Shown here: positions 5,138-11,263 of the stretch, piece by piece
Layout of the letters: every line of letters starts with the position of its first letter
Numbering within the stretch: position 1 is the first letter of the stretch
Assembly (NCBI GenBank): GCA_944383415.1
Contig: CALWPK010000008.1
Coordinates: 1 to 53,112 of the forward strand
Reading direction: 5' to 3'
Origin: an uncultured Clostridia bacterium
Lineage (GTDB): Bacteria > Bacillota > Clostridia > Christensenellales > UBA1242
Length of the DNA: 53,112 bases
The notes under the pieces: generated by a model
Seen by the model: only the letters and a program-made list of their open reading frames with translations
What the model was told of the DNA's origin: nothing
The model's database searches: none
Translations under genes and position numbers: made by a program

Positions 5138-5208
5138 AAAAATATTATATCAGAAATTAAAAAATGTTACAAGCGTTTGTATGTGGAAGTGTGAAAAGGA
5201 GAAGAAAA

Positions 5209-6012
5209 ATGAAAGTTGAAAGTAAAGATTTACATATTTTACCACAGCAATTTATTCAAGCAAAAGTAATAACATACTCAAATGGTCGCAAAGCAATCGT
5301 GGGTAAAAAGGTTATAAATGGTGCTAAAAGTCCCATTAAAAAGCGAGGTCGGTGTCCGCCCGTAAATCGCAACGAACCTATGACCAAAAAAGCATTAAAA
5401 AGGACAAAAAATCATAATTTTGGAAGACTTTTTGAACTGGACTTGATTGACCAAAATTGTCGTTTTGTTTCCCTTACAATATGCAAAGAGAAGTATAACA
5501 TTTATAACAAAGTTAGCAAAAGGTTTAAGCATTTTATTGCCGAGGTTCGTGAAAAAGTAAAAAATCATTTTATTGGCACTGCAAGATTTATTGAATTGCA
5601 AAAAAATGGATTTTTCCATATACATTGTATTTTGGTTTTTGATAATAAAAATATTGATTTGACTTGCAAAGATTTGCACAAAATGTGGGGTTGGGGTTTG
5701 GTTGATATGAAGGCTGTCAAAAACAGATTTGGTCTTTTTGATTATCTAACAAATTTAAAACACAATATGACCAATAGAAAGGACAATAAGTTTACCCGTT
5801 ACCCGAAAGGTGCAAGAATAATTTACATTAGTCCAAATTTATCAAGAGCAAAAAGTAAAGATATTTTACTTACACCAGAAAAATATTCTGCGTTGCAAAA
5901 TAGTGGAGAATATGAAGTGTATTTTAAATCACATCAATACTATGACCCTACTACACAAAAGAAAAGAAATCGCATTGATAAAAAAATTTTAATTCAAAAA
6001 AATAAAAAATAA
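5209..6012 (+). CDS. HUH-type rolling-circle replication initiator-like protein
   Basis: The 267-residue protein shows the three motifs of HUH Rep enzymes in order. A strand motif FVSLTI (about residue 85) stands for motif 1. HIHCILVF (about 138) is the metal-binding His-x-His. FDYLTNLKH (about 177) is the tyrosine/lysine helix carrying the likely nicking Tyr. The N-terminus is basic. The ATG at 5209 is chosen because AAAAGGAGAAG lies just upstream, while an in-frame start 45 bp earlier has no ribosome-binding site. Such proteins nick one strand to start rolling-circle replication or transfer. It probably lets the excised element replicate or be mobilized. The family is confident, the exact subfamily is not. 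Confidence 0.75.
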   Translation: MKVESKDLHILPQQFIQAKVITYSNGRKAIVGKKVINGAKSPIKKRGRCPPVNRNEPMTKKALKRTKNHNFGRLFELDLIDQNCRFVSLTICKEKYNIYNKVSKRFKHFIAEVREKVKNHFIGTARFIELQKNGFFHIHCILVFDNKNIDLTCKDLHKMWGWGLVDMKAVKNRFGLFDYLTNLKHNMTNRKDNKFTRYPKGARIIYISPNLSRAKSKDILLTPEKYSALQNSGEYEVYFKSHQYYDPTTQKKRNRIDKKILIQKNKK

Positions 6013-6099: not shown

Positions 6100-6292
6100 A
6101 TTTTGCGAAAAAATTATGAATATACGCTTTATTGCGAAAAAACAAAAAGTTGAGTATCAAACAGTTGATACAACTATTGGTTCATTAAAAGAAATTGATA
6201 AGAAAGAACTTTTCCCTTTATTTGAACTAATAATGAAAGAATTAAAAAATGAACAAAAAGAAGAAAACAAAGGAGGACAAATAAATGAATAA
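6089..6292 (+). CDS. Small unknown protein translationally coupled to the serine recombinase
   Basis: The frame runs to TAA at 6290-6292 and overlaps the recombinase start (6285) by 8 bp. The recombinase ribosome-binding site AAGGAGGACAAATA lies inside it. The peptide is charged, 58-67 residues, with a C-terminal KEENKGGQINE tail. The start is uncertain: TTG at 6089, or ATG at 6116 giving 58 residues, with neither having a good Shine-Dalgarno site. Small genes just upstream of large serine recombinases often encode accessory or excision factors or domain-of-unknown-function partners. No family was recognised. Confidence 0.55.
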   Translation: MQVKFCEKIMNIRFIAKKQKVEYQTVDTTIGSLKEIDKKELFPLFELIMKELKNEQKEENKGGQINE

Positions 6293-7985
6293 AGAATCAA
6301 ATAAGGTTGCGGTTGGCTATTGTAGAGTTTCAACCGATAAACAGCGAGAAGAAAGTTTAGACCACCAACAACGAGAAATTCAAAAATATGCTGATGAGAA
6401 TGGAATTAAAATAATTAACTGGTATATTGACCACGGGTATTCTGGAACAACGGAAGAAAGACCAGACTTTCAAAAAATGATAGAGGATAGTAAAAAGAAA
6501 GAGTTTAATTTAGTGCTAGTGTGGAAACTTGATAGATTCTCTCGTGATAAGTTTGTAAGTGCTAATGCTAAACATAAACTAAAAGAAAATGGTGTTTCTG
6601 TCTTTTCAGTTATTGAAAGAATTGAGAATACGCCCGAGGGAGAAATCATAGAAAGTCTGTTTGAAGCAATGAATCAATACTATGTAAAAAATCTTGCTCG
6701 TGGTGTATTGGGCGGAATGGTTGAAAATGTTAGAAATGGTATAAGCGTTGGAAGTTGCACTTTTGGCTATATGTTGACACCAAAATTAGATGAAAATGGC
6801 AATATTGTTAAAAAATATAGCAAGACTGGAAAGGCTAAACCCGTAAATATTTATACTCTCCACCCAGAACATTCTGCCACTGTAAAACTTATTTTTGATA
6901 TGTTCTTGGCTGGTGCAAGTAGAAATGAAATATTAGCACGATTAAAAGAGTGTGGCTACAAGAATTCAAAAGGTGGAGATTTCAAAGCAACTAATATTGA
7001 TAAAATTTTAAGAAATGAGCGTTACACAGGTGTTTATATTTTGGAGTATAACAAAGGTAAACAAGTCAATTATATGGACACCGAAGTAATACGCAACGAA
7101 GGTGGACTGCCAAAAATAATCGACAAAGAAGACTTTGACAAAGTTCAGCAAATGCTAAATGCTCGCAAACATCAACCAAATGCTCGCTCACTGGTTAGTT
7201 ATCTATTGACTGGTAAAATTGTTTGCGGAAATTGTGGAGCTCAATTTACAGGCTCTACTCACTACAAAAACGGACAACCTTATCACTATTATCGTTGCGG
7301 GCGTAATAATGATGACTGCAAAATGATATCTATTCGCAAAGAAGCCATTGAAAACTTTGTAATAAAAGAAATTGAAAAAGTTGTAAAAAGTGGAGAGTTT
7401 GTTGCAAGCATACTTGACCGTTTTGCTGAGTTCTATAAAGAAAGAAATAACAACAGCGAAATTATTAAAAGGCTTGAAAAGAATTTGCAAGATATTGAGC
7501 GTAAAATTGGCAACTTGACAAAGATAGTGGCCGAAACAGGAAAATATACTGAAATGTTTGAAACTGAGTTGGATGCTCTTACTGATGAAAAAATTAGAAT
7601 TCTTGCAAATCTTAAAAACGAAACAAATATGGGTTTGGCTGAGTTTATTACAAAAGACCAAGTTCGCCGTTCTTACTGCAAGGTTTTGAAATTATTAAAA
7701 AGCGGAAAAGTTGAAGACCAAAGAACAATTATCAACACTTTGCTTAATCGTGTCGTGGTTTATAAAGACCGAGTTGAAACCTTTATCAATATTTTACCTT
7801 ATGAGGGTTCTATTGCCGAAATGTCAATCACAAATGCTGACTTGGAAAAATATGGCTTGCTAGAAACCTCAAAAAATGAAAATATCACTCAGGAATGCAA
7901 TATTCCGAGTGATATTTGCTTTGGTAGTCCTATGGGGAATCGAACCCCAGTCTTAGCCGTGAGAGGGCCACGTCCTAACCTCTAG
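6285..7985 (+). CDS. Large serine recombinase (site-specific integrase) reading into tRNA-Glu
   Basis: An N-terminal resolvase domain contains YCRVSTDKQ with the nucleophilic serine (S16) and VWKLDRFSRD. The recombinase DNA-binding domain (about 165-290) has LARGVLGGMVENVRNG and RNERYTGVY. A zinc beta-ribbon follows (CGNCGAQF and paired cysteines, about 315-345), then a coiled-coil region (about 390-450). This is the full architecture of large serine integrases, which catalyse attP x attB integration and, with a directionality factor, excision. The frame continues past the normal end of the family through a hairpin and into the antisense strand of tRNA-Glu, where it finds TAG at 7983-7985. 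The last 17 residues are therefore antisense tRNA. The start has AAGGAGGACAAATA upstream. Confidence 0.92.
   Translation: MNKESNKVAVGYCRVSTDKQREESLDHQQREIQKYADENGIKIINWYIDHGYSGTTEERPDFQKMIEDSKKKEFNLVLVWKLDRFSRDKFVSANAKHKLKENGVSVFSVIERIENTPEGEIIESLFEAMNQYYVKNLARGVLGGMVENVRNGISVGSCTFGYMLTPKLDENGNIVKKYSKTGKAKPVNIYTLHPEHSATVKLIFDMFLAGASRNEILARLKECGYKNSKGGDFKATNIDKILRNERYTGVYILEYNKGKQVNYMDTEVIRNEGGLPKIIDKEDFDKVQQMLNARKHQPNARSLVSYLLTGKIVCGNCGAQFTGSTHYKNGQPYHYYRCGRNNDDCKMISIRKEAIENFVIKEIEKVVKSGEFVASILDRFAEFYKERNNNSEIIKRLEKNLQDIERKIGNLTKIVAETGKYTEMFETELDALTDEKIRILANLKNETNMGLAEFITKDQVRRSYCKVLKLLKSGKVEDQRTIINTLLNRVVVYKDRVETFINILPYEGSIAEMSITNADLEKYGLLETSKNENITQECNIPSDICFGSPMGNRTPVLAVRGPRPNL
7872..7915 (-). 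terminator. Terminator of tRNA-Glu, inside the recombinase reading frame
   Basis: Just past the CCA end of tRNA-Glu, the minus strand forms a stem of 8-9 bp plus 5 bp with a single bulged base (7882-7896 with 7902-7915), followed by TTTTCATTTTTTG. The position and U tract are typical of a tRNA gene terminator. The same DNA encodes the C-terminal part of the serine recombinase on the other strand. Confidence 0.75.
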
Positions 7986-7996
7986 ACTATAGGACC
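7922..7996 (-). tRNA. tRNA-Glu, anticodon CTC
   Basis: A complete cloverleaf with encoded CCA (7922-7924). The acceptor stem pairs GGTCCTA with TAGGACT (one G-U pair), the anticodon loop is CTCTCAC giving CTC, and the T arm is TGGGG/CCCCA around TTCGATT. It reads GAG codons. The mobile element lies directly beyond its 3' end, and a good promoter (8008-8036) lies upstream. Confidence 0.95.
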
Positions 7997-8036: not shown

Positions 8037-8069
8037 GTATATTTACTTAATTTATTTAAAATTTTATGA

Positions 8070-8075
8070 TATAAT
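8070..8075 (+). promoter_or_regulatory. -10 box of comEC (leaderless start predicted)
   Basis: TATAAT ends 7 nt before the ATG at 8083. The -35 region is weak (TTAATT at 17 bp). Transcription would begin at or next to the start codon. Confidence 0.5.
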
Positions 8076-8082
8076 TATATTG

Positions 8083-9594
8083 ATGAAATCACGTTGGTTC
8101 AATTATCGACCATTATGTATTGTTTTTATCTTCCTTTTGCTAGGATCAGTTTTTGTTTTCTATTTATCTGATTATAAATTATTTACCATTATTATCACTA
8201 TTATAATTTTTGTATTTCTGATGGCATTGACGATCTTGAAAAGAAGAATTAAATATGTGTTAATTCCGCTGATCTCATTCATACTCGGTGCGTCTTTGTA
8301 TTATGGTGTGGTGACTTCATTTCAAGAAGAGATTGAGACTCCAAACACCATTCAGGCAAGAATTTATAATGTTAATTTGCCAGAAGATGGAAGAATTAGA
8401 GTGTATGCGGATAGTTGCGAGTTTGATGGGAAAGAGATAAAAGAAAATTTAATTATCTATATTTATGACAATTCAAATTTGTTTGAAAATATTGAAATTG
8501 GAAGCATAATCAGTTTCTCACCAAGCAATTTTTATCAAACGGATCTATTTTACTATGGCACACCGAATGCGAGTTATTATTTGAAAGGATTAAAGTATAG
8601 TGCAACGGTTAGTGCTAGCAATGTAACGTTTTTAAAAACAGACAAAACTTTCGCCGAAAAATTAAAACAATATGTGAAAGACAATTTAAGAGGAAGTTTA
8701 ACGAATGAAAATGTTGAAATTGCTTATTCGTCTTTGTTTGGTGAAATAGAACTTTTGTCTGACAGTCAATATAATGCATACAAATTATCTGGTGTAGCAC
8801 ACCTTTTGGCAGTCTCTGGTTTGCATGTCGTAATAATAGTTGGAATTTTATATAAAATTTTAGATTTTTTGAAAATTAAAAATTGGCCAAGAATTATTAT
8901 TGTATCTATTTTACTAATTTTTTATACGTATATATGCAATTTCGCAGTGTCAATTATTAGATCAACGATTATGTCTATAGTAATGTTGCTTGCACCAATC
9001 TTCTTTAGGGAATATGATTCATTGTCCTCAATCGCGTTGTCTGGAATAATCATATTCTTTATCAATCCATTGACCGCGTTCGATCCTGGATTTTTGATGA
9101 GTTTTGCGTGCGTGGTAGGTATAACAATTTTAAATAAGCCAATTTCGACTGCGCTCACTCACACAAAAATGCCCAAATGGCTTGTCGATAGTCTATCTAT
9201 GAGCATTTCCACTATGGTGTCTCTAATATTTATTATGGCACATTTCTTCAATACACTGAATGTAATATCTCTAATAGCCAATATAATTTTGATACCTATA
9301 TTTTCGTTCGCGTTTATAATTGTATTTGTTGTGTCAATTGTCGCTCTAGCGCTTCCATTTGTAACAATAGTGTTATATCCAGTCAATTTTATTTTTGATT
9401 TTATCAATATTGTTGCCACGATTTTGGGAAATTTATCTATTTCAAACTTCGAGACAATATCTTTTCAATATGCTACAATATTAATATATTTCTTATTATT
9501 GCTATTAATTAGTAGGATTTGTGTAGCAAATAGGCAAACAAAAGTGATCTTATCGTTGCCAACGTTTGCATTATTGGTGGTATGTTTGTTATAA
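8083..9594 (+). CDS. comEC: ComEC/Rec2-type DNA uptake channel without metallo-beta-lactamase domain
   Basis: A polytopic membrane protein of 503 residues. N-terminal hydrophobic helices (about 5-70) are followed by an extracytoplasmic beta-rich segment (about 80-190) and then the ComEC competence domain, recognisable by GVAHLLAVSGLHVVII (about 240) and several more membrane helices. ComEC forms the channel that takes single-stranded DNA into the cell. Typical proteins are about 750 residues and end in a metallo-beta-lactamase domain. This one stops after the last helices and the next gene follows directly, so that domain is absent. The start ATG at 8083 has no Shine-Dalgarno site but lies 7 nt after a TATAAT, suggesting a leaderless message. 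Order comEC-holA-rpsT is conserved in Firmicutes. Confidence 0.88.
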   Translation: MKSRWFNYRPLCIVFIFLLLGSVFVFYLSDYKLFTIIITIIIFVFLMALTILKRRIKYVLIPLISFILGASLYYGVVTSFQEEIETPNTIQARIYNVNLPEDGRIRVYADSCEFDGKEIKENLIIYIYDNSNLFENIEIGSIISFSPSNFYQTDLFYYGTPNASYYLKGLKYSATVSASNVTFLKTDKTFAEKLKQYVKDNLRGSLTNENVEIAYSSLFGEIELLSDSQYNAYKLSGVAHLLAVSGLHVVIIVGILYKILDFLKIKNWPRIIIVSILLIFYTYICNFAVSIIRSTIMSIVMLLAPIFFREYDSLSSIALSGIIIFFINPLTAFDPGFLMSFACVVGITILNKPISTALTHTKMPKWLVDSLSMSISTMVSLIFIMAHFFNTLNVISLIANIILIPIFSFAFIIVFVVSIVALALPFVTIVLYPVNFIFDFINIVATILGNLSISNFETISFQYATILIYFLLLLLISRICVANRQTKVILSLPTFALLVVCLL

Positions 9595-9595
9595 T
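9566..9595 (+). promoter_or_regulatory. Promoter of holA inside the end of comEC
   Basis: TTGCAT (9566-9571), an 18-bp spacer and TATAAT (9590-9595) end 6 nt before the holA ATG. The promoter overlaps the last codons and stop of comEC. No Shine-Dalgarno site is present. Confidence 0.6.
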
Positions 9596-9601
9596 ATAAA
9601 T

Positions 9602-10522
9602 ATGAAATTTATTGAATTGAATAAAAACTTAAAGTCAAAAGTGCAAAACGTCTACAAAATTATTGGAGACGATATGTTTTTGATCAGGCAAACAATTATT
9701 AATCTAAAAAAATATCTAATTACATCATTTGGAGAGTTTAATTTTGTTAAATTAAATGCAGAGAAGATGAAATCAGATGAAATAGAAGCAAATCTATTGA
9801 CGCTTCCTATTAATAATAATTACAGGCTACTTGTCATAGAAAATCCAAATGGAGAAGTATGTAAATTCATTAACAAATTTAATTTTTCAGATAGTTCTAC
9901 AGTACTTCTCGTATTGAATGCTGATAAGATAACGGTAGGCGAGACGATTGATTGCACTAAACTCGATAGAAAGGATATCAACAACTATATTTTAAATTAT
10001 CTTTCAAAATTGCAATTGTCCATTCGTGAACAGGCTTTAGATTATTTGGTAGATTCTTGCTCATCAGATATGTCCAAGATCAATAATGAATTGAACAAAA
10101 TTGTATCGTATTCGCTAGGAGAGAACATTGATGTAATAGATTTGAACTTGGTCACGAATATAGTTTCATACTCAAACGAATATGTAATATATATGTTGAC
10201 CAATGCAATTGATAATAAAGATTATACGACTTATCAAAAGATGATTAATCAAATGAACAAATCTCAATCTGCCTCTGAAATATTTTCATATTTGGGCAAA
10301 TATTTTAGAAGGATGCAATACATTTCAATTGATAAACAAGATGATGAATTGACAAAAATTTTGAATATCAAACCTTATGCGATTAAAATATCCAGACAGC
10401 ATATAGCAAAGAATGGTATTAAATACTACATCAATTTGTATCAAAAATATGTAGATCTAGATTATAAAATTAAATCTGGCGATATAAGTGCCAAAAATGC
10501 TTTGTATGAATTAATTTTTTAA
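9602..10522 (+). CDS. holA: DNA polymerase III delta subunit
   Basis: A 306-residue protein with the layout of bacterial delta: an N-terminal RecA-like region beginning with the nucleotide-binding-domain strand VYKIIGDDMFLIRQ, followed by the LLVIENP strand, then a helical lid region (KLDRKDINNYILNYL) and a C-terminal collar domain ending in DYKIKSGDISAKNALYELIF, where the IKSG motif is characteristic of HolA. Delta opens the beta clamp within the clamp loader. The ATG at 9602 is preferred over an upstream in-frame start because a TATAAT box ends 6 nt before it and the homologous N-terminus begins there. It lies 7 bp after comEC. Confidence 0.88.
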   Translation: MKFIELNKNLKSKVQNVYKIIGDDMFLIRQTIINLKKYLITSFGEFNFVKLNAEKMKSDEIEANLLTLPINNNYRLLVIENPNGEVCKFINKFNFSDSSTVLLVLNADKITVGETIDCTKLDRKDINNYILNYLSKLQLSIREQALDYLVDSCSSDMSKINNELNKIVSYSLGENIDVIDLNLVTNIVSYSNEYVIYMLTNAIDNKDYTTYQKMINQMNKSQSASEIFSYLGKYFRRMQYISIDKQDDELTKILNIKPYAIKISRQHIAKNGIKYYINLYQKYVDLDYKIKSGDISAKNALYELIF

Positions 10523-10525
10523 TAT

Positions 10526-10554
10526 TTGCAATATTCTTCTATTAATGATATAAT
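10526..10554 (+). promoter_or_regulatory. Promoter of the YgjP-like gene
   Basis: TTGCAA (10526-10531), an exact 17-bp spacer and TATAAT (10549-10554) end 7 nt before ATG 10562. It starts 3 bp after the holA stop codon. Confidence 0.7.
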
Positions 10555-10561
10555 AAATGTT

Positions 10562-11233
10562 ATGTTTGTAAATAGTTTGATTGAGCCAAAAGAGATAATT
10601 TATTCAACACGTAGGACAATTTCTTTGATCATAAATTCTAATGGTGAATTGATTGTACGTGCACCAATTAATTGTCCGATGAGCAAAATTGAAAAATTCA
10701 TCAACGAAAAGGCGGATTGGATCATTAAGAAAAAGAATTTATTTTCAGAGCACAATTTCTATAGTCCGCTCAAATTTGAAGGAAATGAATATTTGTATTT
10801 ATTGGGAGATAGGTATAATATCATCTTGGCAGATTCTACAAGGGTGAGAGTCAAAGGTGACATAATCGAGATACCAAAATTAGATGCTAGGAGTAAACTG
10901 CTACGTTTTTTATCTAGAACGGCAAAAAGATATATTTCAAAACGGGTAGAGTATATTGCTGGATTATTCAAATTGAAGTATAAATGCATATCTATAACGT
11001 CAGCACATACCAGATGGGGTTCGTGTAGTTATAATAATAAACTAAATTTTACTTACAAACTAATAATGTGCCCAAAAGAAGTGATTGATTATATAATCGT
11101 CCACGAATTGTGCCACACGATAGAAAAAAATCACAGCAAAAATTTTTGGAGTAAAGTAAAAACAATTTTGCCGAATTATAAGTCTTATGAAAAATGGCTA
11201 AAAGACAATCGCGGAATAATAAATATGATTTAA
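10562..11233 (+). CDS. YgjP-type (DUF45) zinc metallopeptidase family protein
   Basis: A 223-residue protein of the YgjP/DUF45 family related to M48 and SprT peptidases. The signature is IIVHELCHTIEKNHSKNFW near the C-terminus, giving H181, E182, H185 and H191 as zinc ligands and catalytic residue. TRWGSCSYNNKLNF, also typical of the family, lies before it. The true substrate is unknown; in other bacteria the gene often sits near restriction or repair genes, while here it follows holA. The ATG at 10562 is chosen over an in-frame upstream start because it lies 7 nt after a consensus promoter and matches the family N-terminus. Confidence 0.85.
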   Translation: MFVNSLIEPKEIIYSTRRTISLIINSNGELIVRAPINCPMSKIEKFINEKADWIIKKKNLFSEHNFYSPLKFEGNEYLYLLGDRYNIILADSTRVRVKGDIIEIPKLDARSKLLRFLSRTAKRYISKRVEYIAGLFKLKYKCISITSAHTRWGSCSYNNKLNFTYKLIMCPKEVIDYIIVHELCHTIEKNHSKNFWSKVKTILPNYKSYEKWLKDNRGIINMI

Positions 11234-11263
11234 AAAAATACCAACTGTCTATTGGTATTTTTT
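11232..11263. terminator. Bidirectional terminator between the YgjP-like gene and rpsT
   Basis: A stem of AAAAATACCAA with TTGGTATTTTT around a 7-nt loop, with A/T tracts on both sides, is placed between two convergent genes. It overlaps the YgjP-like stop codon region. Confidence 0.85.

Follow-up and report, generated by a model that had tools for sequence, protein, structure and literature searches.

The leaderless mechanism is already known in other bacteria. Within the Firmicutes, Zheng et al. reported leaderless genes in 56 of 209 genomes at an average of 4.2%, concentrated in the Lactobacillales and Mycoplasma, with a strong TG extension in Lactococcus (PMC3160421). By dRNA-seq about 9% of the mRNAs of S. 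pyogenes, S. agalactiae and S. pneumoniae are leaderless (PMC6431027), and fractions of 16–18% have been given for mycoplasmas (PMC10568206, PMC3160421). For clostridia, 15 candidate leaderless genes were listed for C. difficile (PMC7438776), 2–3% for solventogenic species (PMC9045289) and 4% of start sites for C. phytofermentans, the latter generally accompanied by another upstream start with an RBS (PMC5171806). The statement in a preliminary description of the DNA studied here that leaderless translation is uncommon in Firmicutes holds for the clostridia tested so far, where few cases were found, but not for streptococci and mycoplasmas.

The window, i.e. the whole stretch of 53,112 nucleotides analysed here, is contig C8 of a genome of 1,086,119 bases in 16 contigs. 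Its relatives are by name uncultured Clostridia MAGs, including Candidatus Caccovivens faecavium, and the class Clostridia is assigned from these names. Genome scans covered 1,083,879 bases (99.8%, GC content 34.5%), leaving out 2.2 kb of two small contigs. A home-made frame-aware Markov model blind to upstream signals called 829 genes, 826 of which have enough upstream sequence for positional counts. We use d for the number of nucleotides between the end of the -10 box and the start codon.

The locus comprises a comEC-like gene, holA and a gene for a YgjP-like metallopeptidase on the same strand, separated by gaps of 7 and 39 nt (Table 1). All three names were matched by Pfam. As read in the preliminary description, a TATAAT ends 7, 6 and 7 nt before the respective ATG, and on inspection of the sequence none of the three start codons has an SD-like site within 20 nt. 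The -35 boxes ascribed to holA (TTGCAT, 18 bp) and the YgjP-like gene (TTGCAA, 17 bp) likewise have the positions and spacers claimed for them; comEC has no good -35 element. TGn precedes TATAAT in all three genes, i.e. the boxes are extended -10 elements, and the comEC stop codon TAA (9592–9594) is itself part of the holA -10 box. As the N-terminus MKSRWFNYRP of comEC is common to three genus members and holA shows an N-terminus of the MKF-EL type throughout the family, both starts appear to be correct. The start of the YgjP-like gene is less firmly fixed, because its N-terminus is variable. By coding score our own gene caller had placed the comEC start at 8221, a caller error that was corrected by hand; the conserved N-terminus supports 8083. 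The comEC product has 503 aa compared to open frames of about 700 aa in many family members, and its C-terminal part seems to be missing. The hairpin with U-run behind the YgjP-like gene is likely the terminator of the three-gene block; a simple terminator scan did not flag it.

Table 1. Features of the comEC–holA–YgjP-like locus (window coordinates)
Feature	Position	Strand	Basis and remarks
comEC extended -10 box TGATATAAT	8067–8075	+	sequence and genome pattern scan; 7 nt to ATG at 8083
comEC-like gene, 503 aa, predicted leaderless or 1-nt leader	8083–9594	+	Pfam Competence PF03772, 4e-48
holA -35 box TTGCAT, within comEC, 18 bp spacer	9566–9571	+	sequence
holA extended -10 box TGTTATAAT	9587–9595	+	TG 9587–9588, TATAAT 9590–9595; 6 nt to ATG at 9602
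holA (DNA polymerase III delta), 306 aa, predicted leaderless	9602–10522	+	DNA_pol3_delta PF06144, 1e-6; PF21694, 5e-7
YgjP-like gene -35 box TTGCAA, 17 bp spacer	10526–10531	+	sequence; promoter scan 10/12
YgjP-like gene extended -10 box TGATATAAT	10546–10554	+	TG 10546–10547, TATAAT 10549–10554; 7 nt to ATG at 10562
YgjP-like metallopeptidase gene, 223 aa, predicted leaderless	10562–11233	+	Pfam YgjP-like PF01863, 2e-54
Hairpin and U-run 3' of YgjP-like gene	11233–11263	+	fold -10.1 kcal/mol, z -2.3

Upstream of the locus, a gene for a large serine recombinase (Resolvase, Recombinase and Zn ribbon domains; 6285–7985) runs into the 3' end of a tRNA-Glu(ctc) at 7922–7996, and a G2P-like replication gene lies at 5164–6012. 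Homology of the related genome G049 with the window begins only at 7909, and the DNA to the left therefore looks like an integrated element at the tRNA. A search of the window's first 9 kb for an attachment-site repeat was negative; the left end of the element may lie beyond the contig.

Judging from sequence, comEC, holA and the YgjP-like gene very probably each have an extended -10 promoter of their own and give rise to leaderless mRNAs, as part of a genome-wide minority mode. Each promoter would be read by the housekeeping sigma factor, and transcription would start on the A of the start codon or 1 nt before it. Since a promoter so placed puts the start at the ATG, the mRNAs, with 5' ends predicted from promoter position, should be leaderless. 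Translation would do without Shine-Dalgarno contact and, in this leaderless form, presumably begin on the 5'-terminal AUG with 70S ribosomes or with the assistance of IF2.

An excess of -10 boxes close to start codons, which the preliminary description had proposed to look for in the whole genome, is present and sharp. An exact TATAAT is found at d = 6 in 38 of 826 genes, while other distances show a mean of 3.8 and a maximum of 10 (binomial P = 7e-12 against the maximum at any other distance). If one mismatch is allowed, 63 genes are found at d = 6 compared to 10–12 at d = 5, 7 and 8. Internal and out-of-frame ATGs of the same genome show no peak at d = 6, and TATAAT occurs 6–7 nt before them about once per 500–1000 ATGs for each distance. 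Boxes before called starts are in excess of chance. Of the genes with a box at d = 6, 37 of 38 start with ATG and only two carry an SD, compared to 491 of the 788 remaining genes (P = 5e-13); SD-like sites are found in 493 of the 826 genes overall (about 60%).

The complete pattern TGnTATAATN6ATG occurs 37 times in the genome, once in the reversed control and five times at a spacing of 10. Six of the 37 matches stem from a single tandem array on contig C1 and were discounted; the gene-based counts exclude them. This array has a 16/32-bp unit and spans 158988–159133 of C1 (18988–19133 of L022), and its reverse strand is made up of repeated extended -10 boxes (TGATATAATAGTACAATGATATAATAACATAATG), all in one direction. 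After subtraction of background we estimate that 55–60 genes, or about 7%, are leaderless, with a share of about 10% among genes that look first in their transcription unit; both values are predictions.

The location of the box just before the ATG and the missing SD would also fit a translation signal instead of a promoter, comparable to the AT-rich non-SD ribosome site proposed for Bacteroides and relatives (PMC9581028), a reading that we find hardly credible. A TTG is located at a spacer of 16–17 bp in 22 of the 38 d = 6 genes (about one at most other spacers) and TGn in 23 of 38 (1–4 at shifted positions). The same anatomy is found in 76 TATAAT boxes lying 15–35 nt upstream of SD genes; TATAAT, TGn and the upstream TTG are shared with these promoters of leadered genes. 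The box moreover avoids tight downstream positions, as expected of promoters: only 2 of 256 genes at such positions have it at d = 6, compared to 36 of 557 others (P = 1e-4). The 16S rRNA tail carries a normal anti-SD, and IF3 is encoded in the genome.

Bacterial RNA polymerase prefers a pyrimidine at -1 and an A at +1. T at -1 is found in 95% of d = 6 genes compared to 67% of SD genes (P = 3e-4) and 58% of the rest, and in 96% of the independent one-mismatch set. This signature of T at -1 and A at +1 fits transcription starting at the ATG, given the preference of the polymerase. For genes with d = 7 the situation is less strict: exact TATAAT is found there in six genes compared to about four expected from background, and because this excess is small, comEC and the YgjP-like gene could have a leader of 1 nt. 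Leaders of 1–5 nt in place of strict leaderlessness, a variant compatible with the main explanation, are favored by the distance of 7 in these two genes and by comEC homologues in other genera with d = 8 to 11; we consider them rather unlikely in view of the genome peak at exactly d = 6 with T at -1 and A at +1. The earlier proposal that the spacing puts +1 on the start codon is well supported by the d = 6 peak, the promoter elements, the -1/+1 signature, the near-exclusion of SD and conservation, but has to be relaxed for the d = 7 genes, which fit a 1-nt leader as well.

With respect to described systems, the predicted fraction of about 7%, counted in genes and for that reason not strictly equal to the mRNAs or start sites of the cited papers, is higher than in C. 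difficile, solventogenic clostridia and C. phytofermentans of the same class (15 genes or 2–4%). Streptococci and Lactococcus resemble the present lineage as low-GC Bacillota with a TG-extended -10 box beside the ORF (Lactococcus, PMC3160421) and in a leaderless mode partly conserved between species, but they belong to another class, whereas we deal with an uncultured Clostridia bacterium of 1 Mb in which the mode is predicted from sequence alone. Mycoplasma shares the small genome and the leaderless minority (PMC10568206, PMC3160421), but M. pneumoniae carries an SD on about 8% of its genes (PMC10568206) compared to about 60% here. In Deinococcus-Thermus and Actinobacteria a -10 box is likewise placed directly before the start codon (PMC12340547, PMC3160421); there it is a TANNNT box on about 20–40% of genes, and here a full TGnTATAAT on about 7%. 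With about 55–70 of 826 genes the genome stays below the share of more than about 20% that marks leaderless-rich genomes of the Deinococcus or Actinobacteria type. The suggestion of a lineage in which leaderless translation is routine therefore goes too far: the mode is predicted genome-wide, but for a minority of about 7% of genes next to an SD majority. In this Clostridia lineage the mode appears to be undescribed in the searchable literature; gene-caller tables may include relatives.

Comparison with related genomes showed that the pattern is enriched in the genus. The genus has 31 copies of TGnTATAATN6ATG per Mb (29.5 without tandem-array copies), compared to 10 for the other members of the family and 2.4 for the class background of 41 other genomes, which were taken from the beginning of an evenly sampled list of 277. 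The density in the genus is about 12-fold over this background; the control at spacing 10 gave densities of 3.9 (genus) and 3.2 (family) per Mb. Values for individual genera range between roughly 1 and 40 per Mb. In genus g5, 14 leaderless-type genes have a homologue in the present genome, and five of these are leaderless-type here as well, where 1.2 are expected (P = 0.004).

A holA homologue was found in 58 of 59 family genomes. TGnTATAATN6ATG precedes it in the three genus members, in genera g20 and g27 and in L152; a box at d = 6 is present in G049, G011, L152, G020, G056 and G027 and is kept in genera g1, g20 and g27 at 35–82% protein identity, while the -35 element TTGCA is kept in G049, G011 and L152. 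Three further genera probably have variants of the box, again at d = 6 (TATTAT, TAAAAT, or TATAAT without TG). L151 holA is without the box, and in most other genera of the family holA has an SD. For comEC, d = 7 was found in G000, G049 (TGCTATAAT) and L151 (TGTTATAAT), which includes two of three genus members; L152 and G004 had d = 8, g12 and g27 had d = 11, and G011 comEC lacks the box. In each of the three genus members, G049 and G011 included, the YgjP-like gene has d = 7. In L152 its ATG overlaps the holA stop codon (TAATG), a coupled layout with no promoter, so the autonomous promoter of the YgjP-like gene may be derived.

The locus could also be a single operon whose promoter lies upstream of comEC. 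Translation of holA and the YgjP-like gene would then rely on coupling or on re-initiation behind the stop codon of the gene in front, and the TATAAT boxes would have arisen by chance in AT-rich DNA. This is suggested by the common strand, the gaps of 7 and 39 nt, the likely terminator located only after the YgjP-like gene and the overlapping layout in L152. We nevertheless regard it as very unlikely, since extended -10 boxes are kept at equal distance in relatives of 35–82% protein identity, TATAAT precedes non-start ATGs by 6–7 nt only about once in 500–1000 cases, and both holA and the YgjP-like gene have -35 elements. No SD is found before the internal genes holA and YgjP-like, as an SD-led polycistronic operon would have. 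Besides their own predicted leaderless mRNAs, read-through transcripts could serve for translation of these two genes as well, given the short gaps of 7 and 39 nt.

The succession of three such genes had been taken as a sign that the mode is routine, which gene order does not bear out. Leaderless candidates form six adjacent same-strand pairs and one triple, numbers matched in 22–24% of shuffles; when 70 leaderless labels were shuffled over the gene order, at least one triple arose in 22% of trials, i.e. about one in five. Clustering of leaderless genes is hence unsupported by gene-order shuffles (P about 0.2). Only five candidates follow a same-strand gene at a distance below 50 nt, and two of these are holA and the YgjP-like gene. 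The unusual feature is that two of five tight-context candidates occur in one locus, rather than the triple itself. The claim of a changed operon transcription map accordingly applies to these two genes.

Many of the leaderless candidates encode RNA-modification, tRNA or DNA-repair enzymes, among them RsmF-type, TruA, Dus, two SpoU, TsaD, Pth, SmpB and RNase R proteins as well as a CCA-type polymerase, UvrD, AddB, RecX, two UDG, HolA and HolB. RNA/DNA-processing enzymes account for 22 of 48 leaderless genes compared to 12 of 40 random SD-led genes outside tight downstream position (P = 0.19), with categories assigned by us from Pfam names. The bias toward such enzymes, non-significant against this small control set, is suggestive only. 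We tentatively put forward that genes of former operons in this family, at first SD-led or coupled, may be becoming self-standing leaderless units by gaining an extended -10 box, sometimes around the preceding stop codon as between comEC and holA, and losing the SD, and that the mode may favor low-abundance RNA-modification and DNA-repair enzymes; this is a possibility we hold with some doubt.

With the predicted leaderless genes described here, an uncultured Clostridia lineage with small genomes would be added to the bacteria combining SD-led with leaderless initiation, and this in a class whose mapped members have few leaderless genes. Because related genomes differ in the mode of holA, SD-led or leaderless, the switch between both can be followed. 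Gene callers that expect an SD may misplace starts in this lineage, and promoters inside groups of closely spaced genes will be overlooked when such genes are joined in operon prediction.
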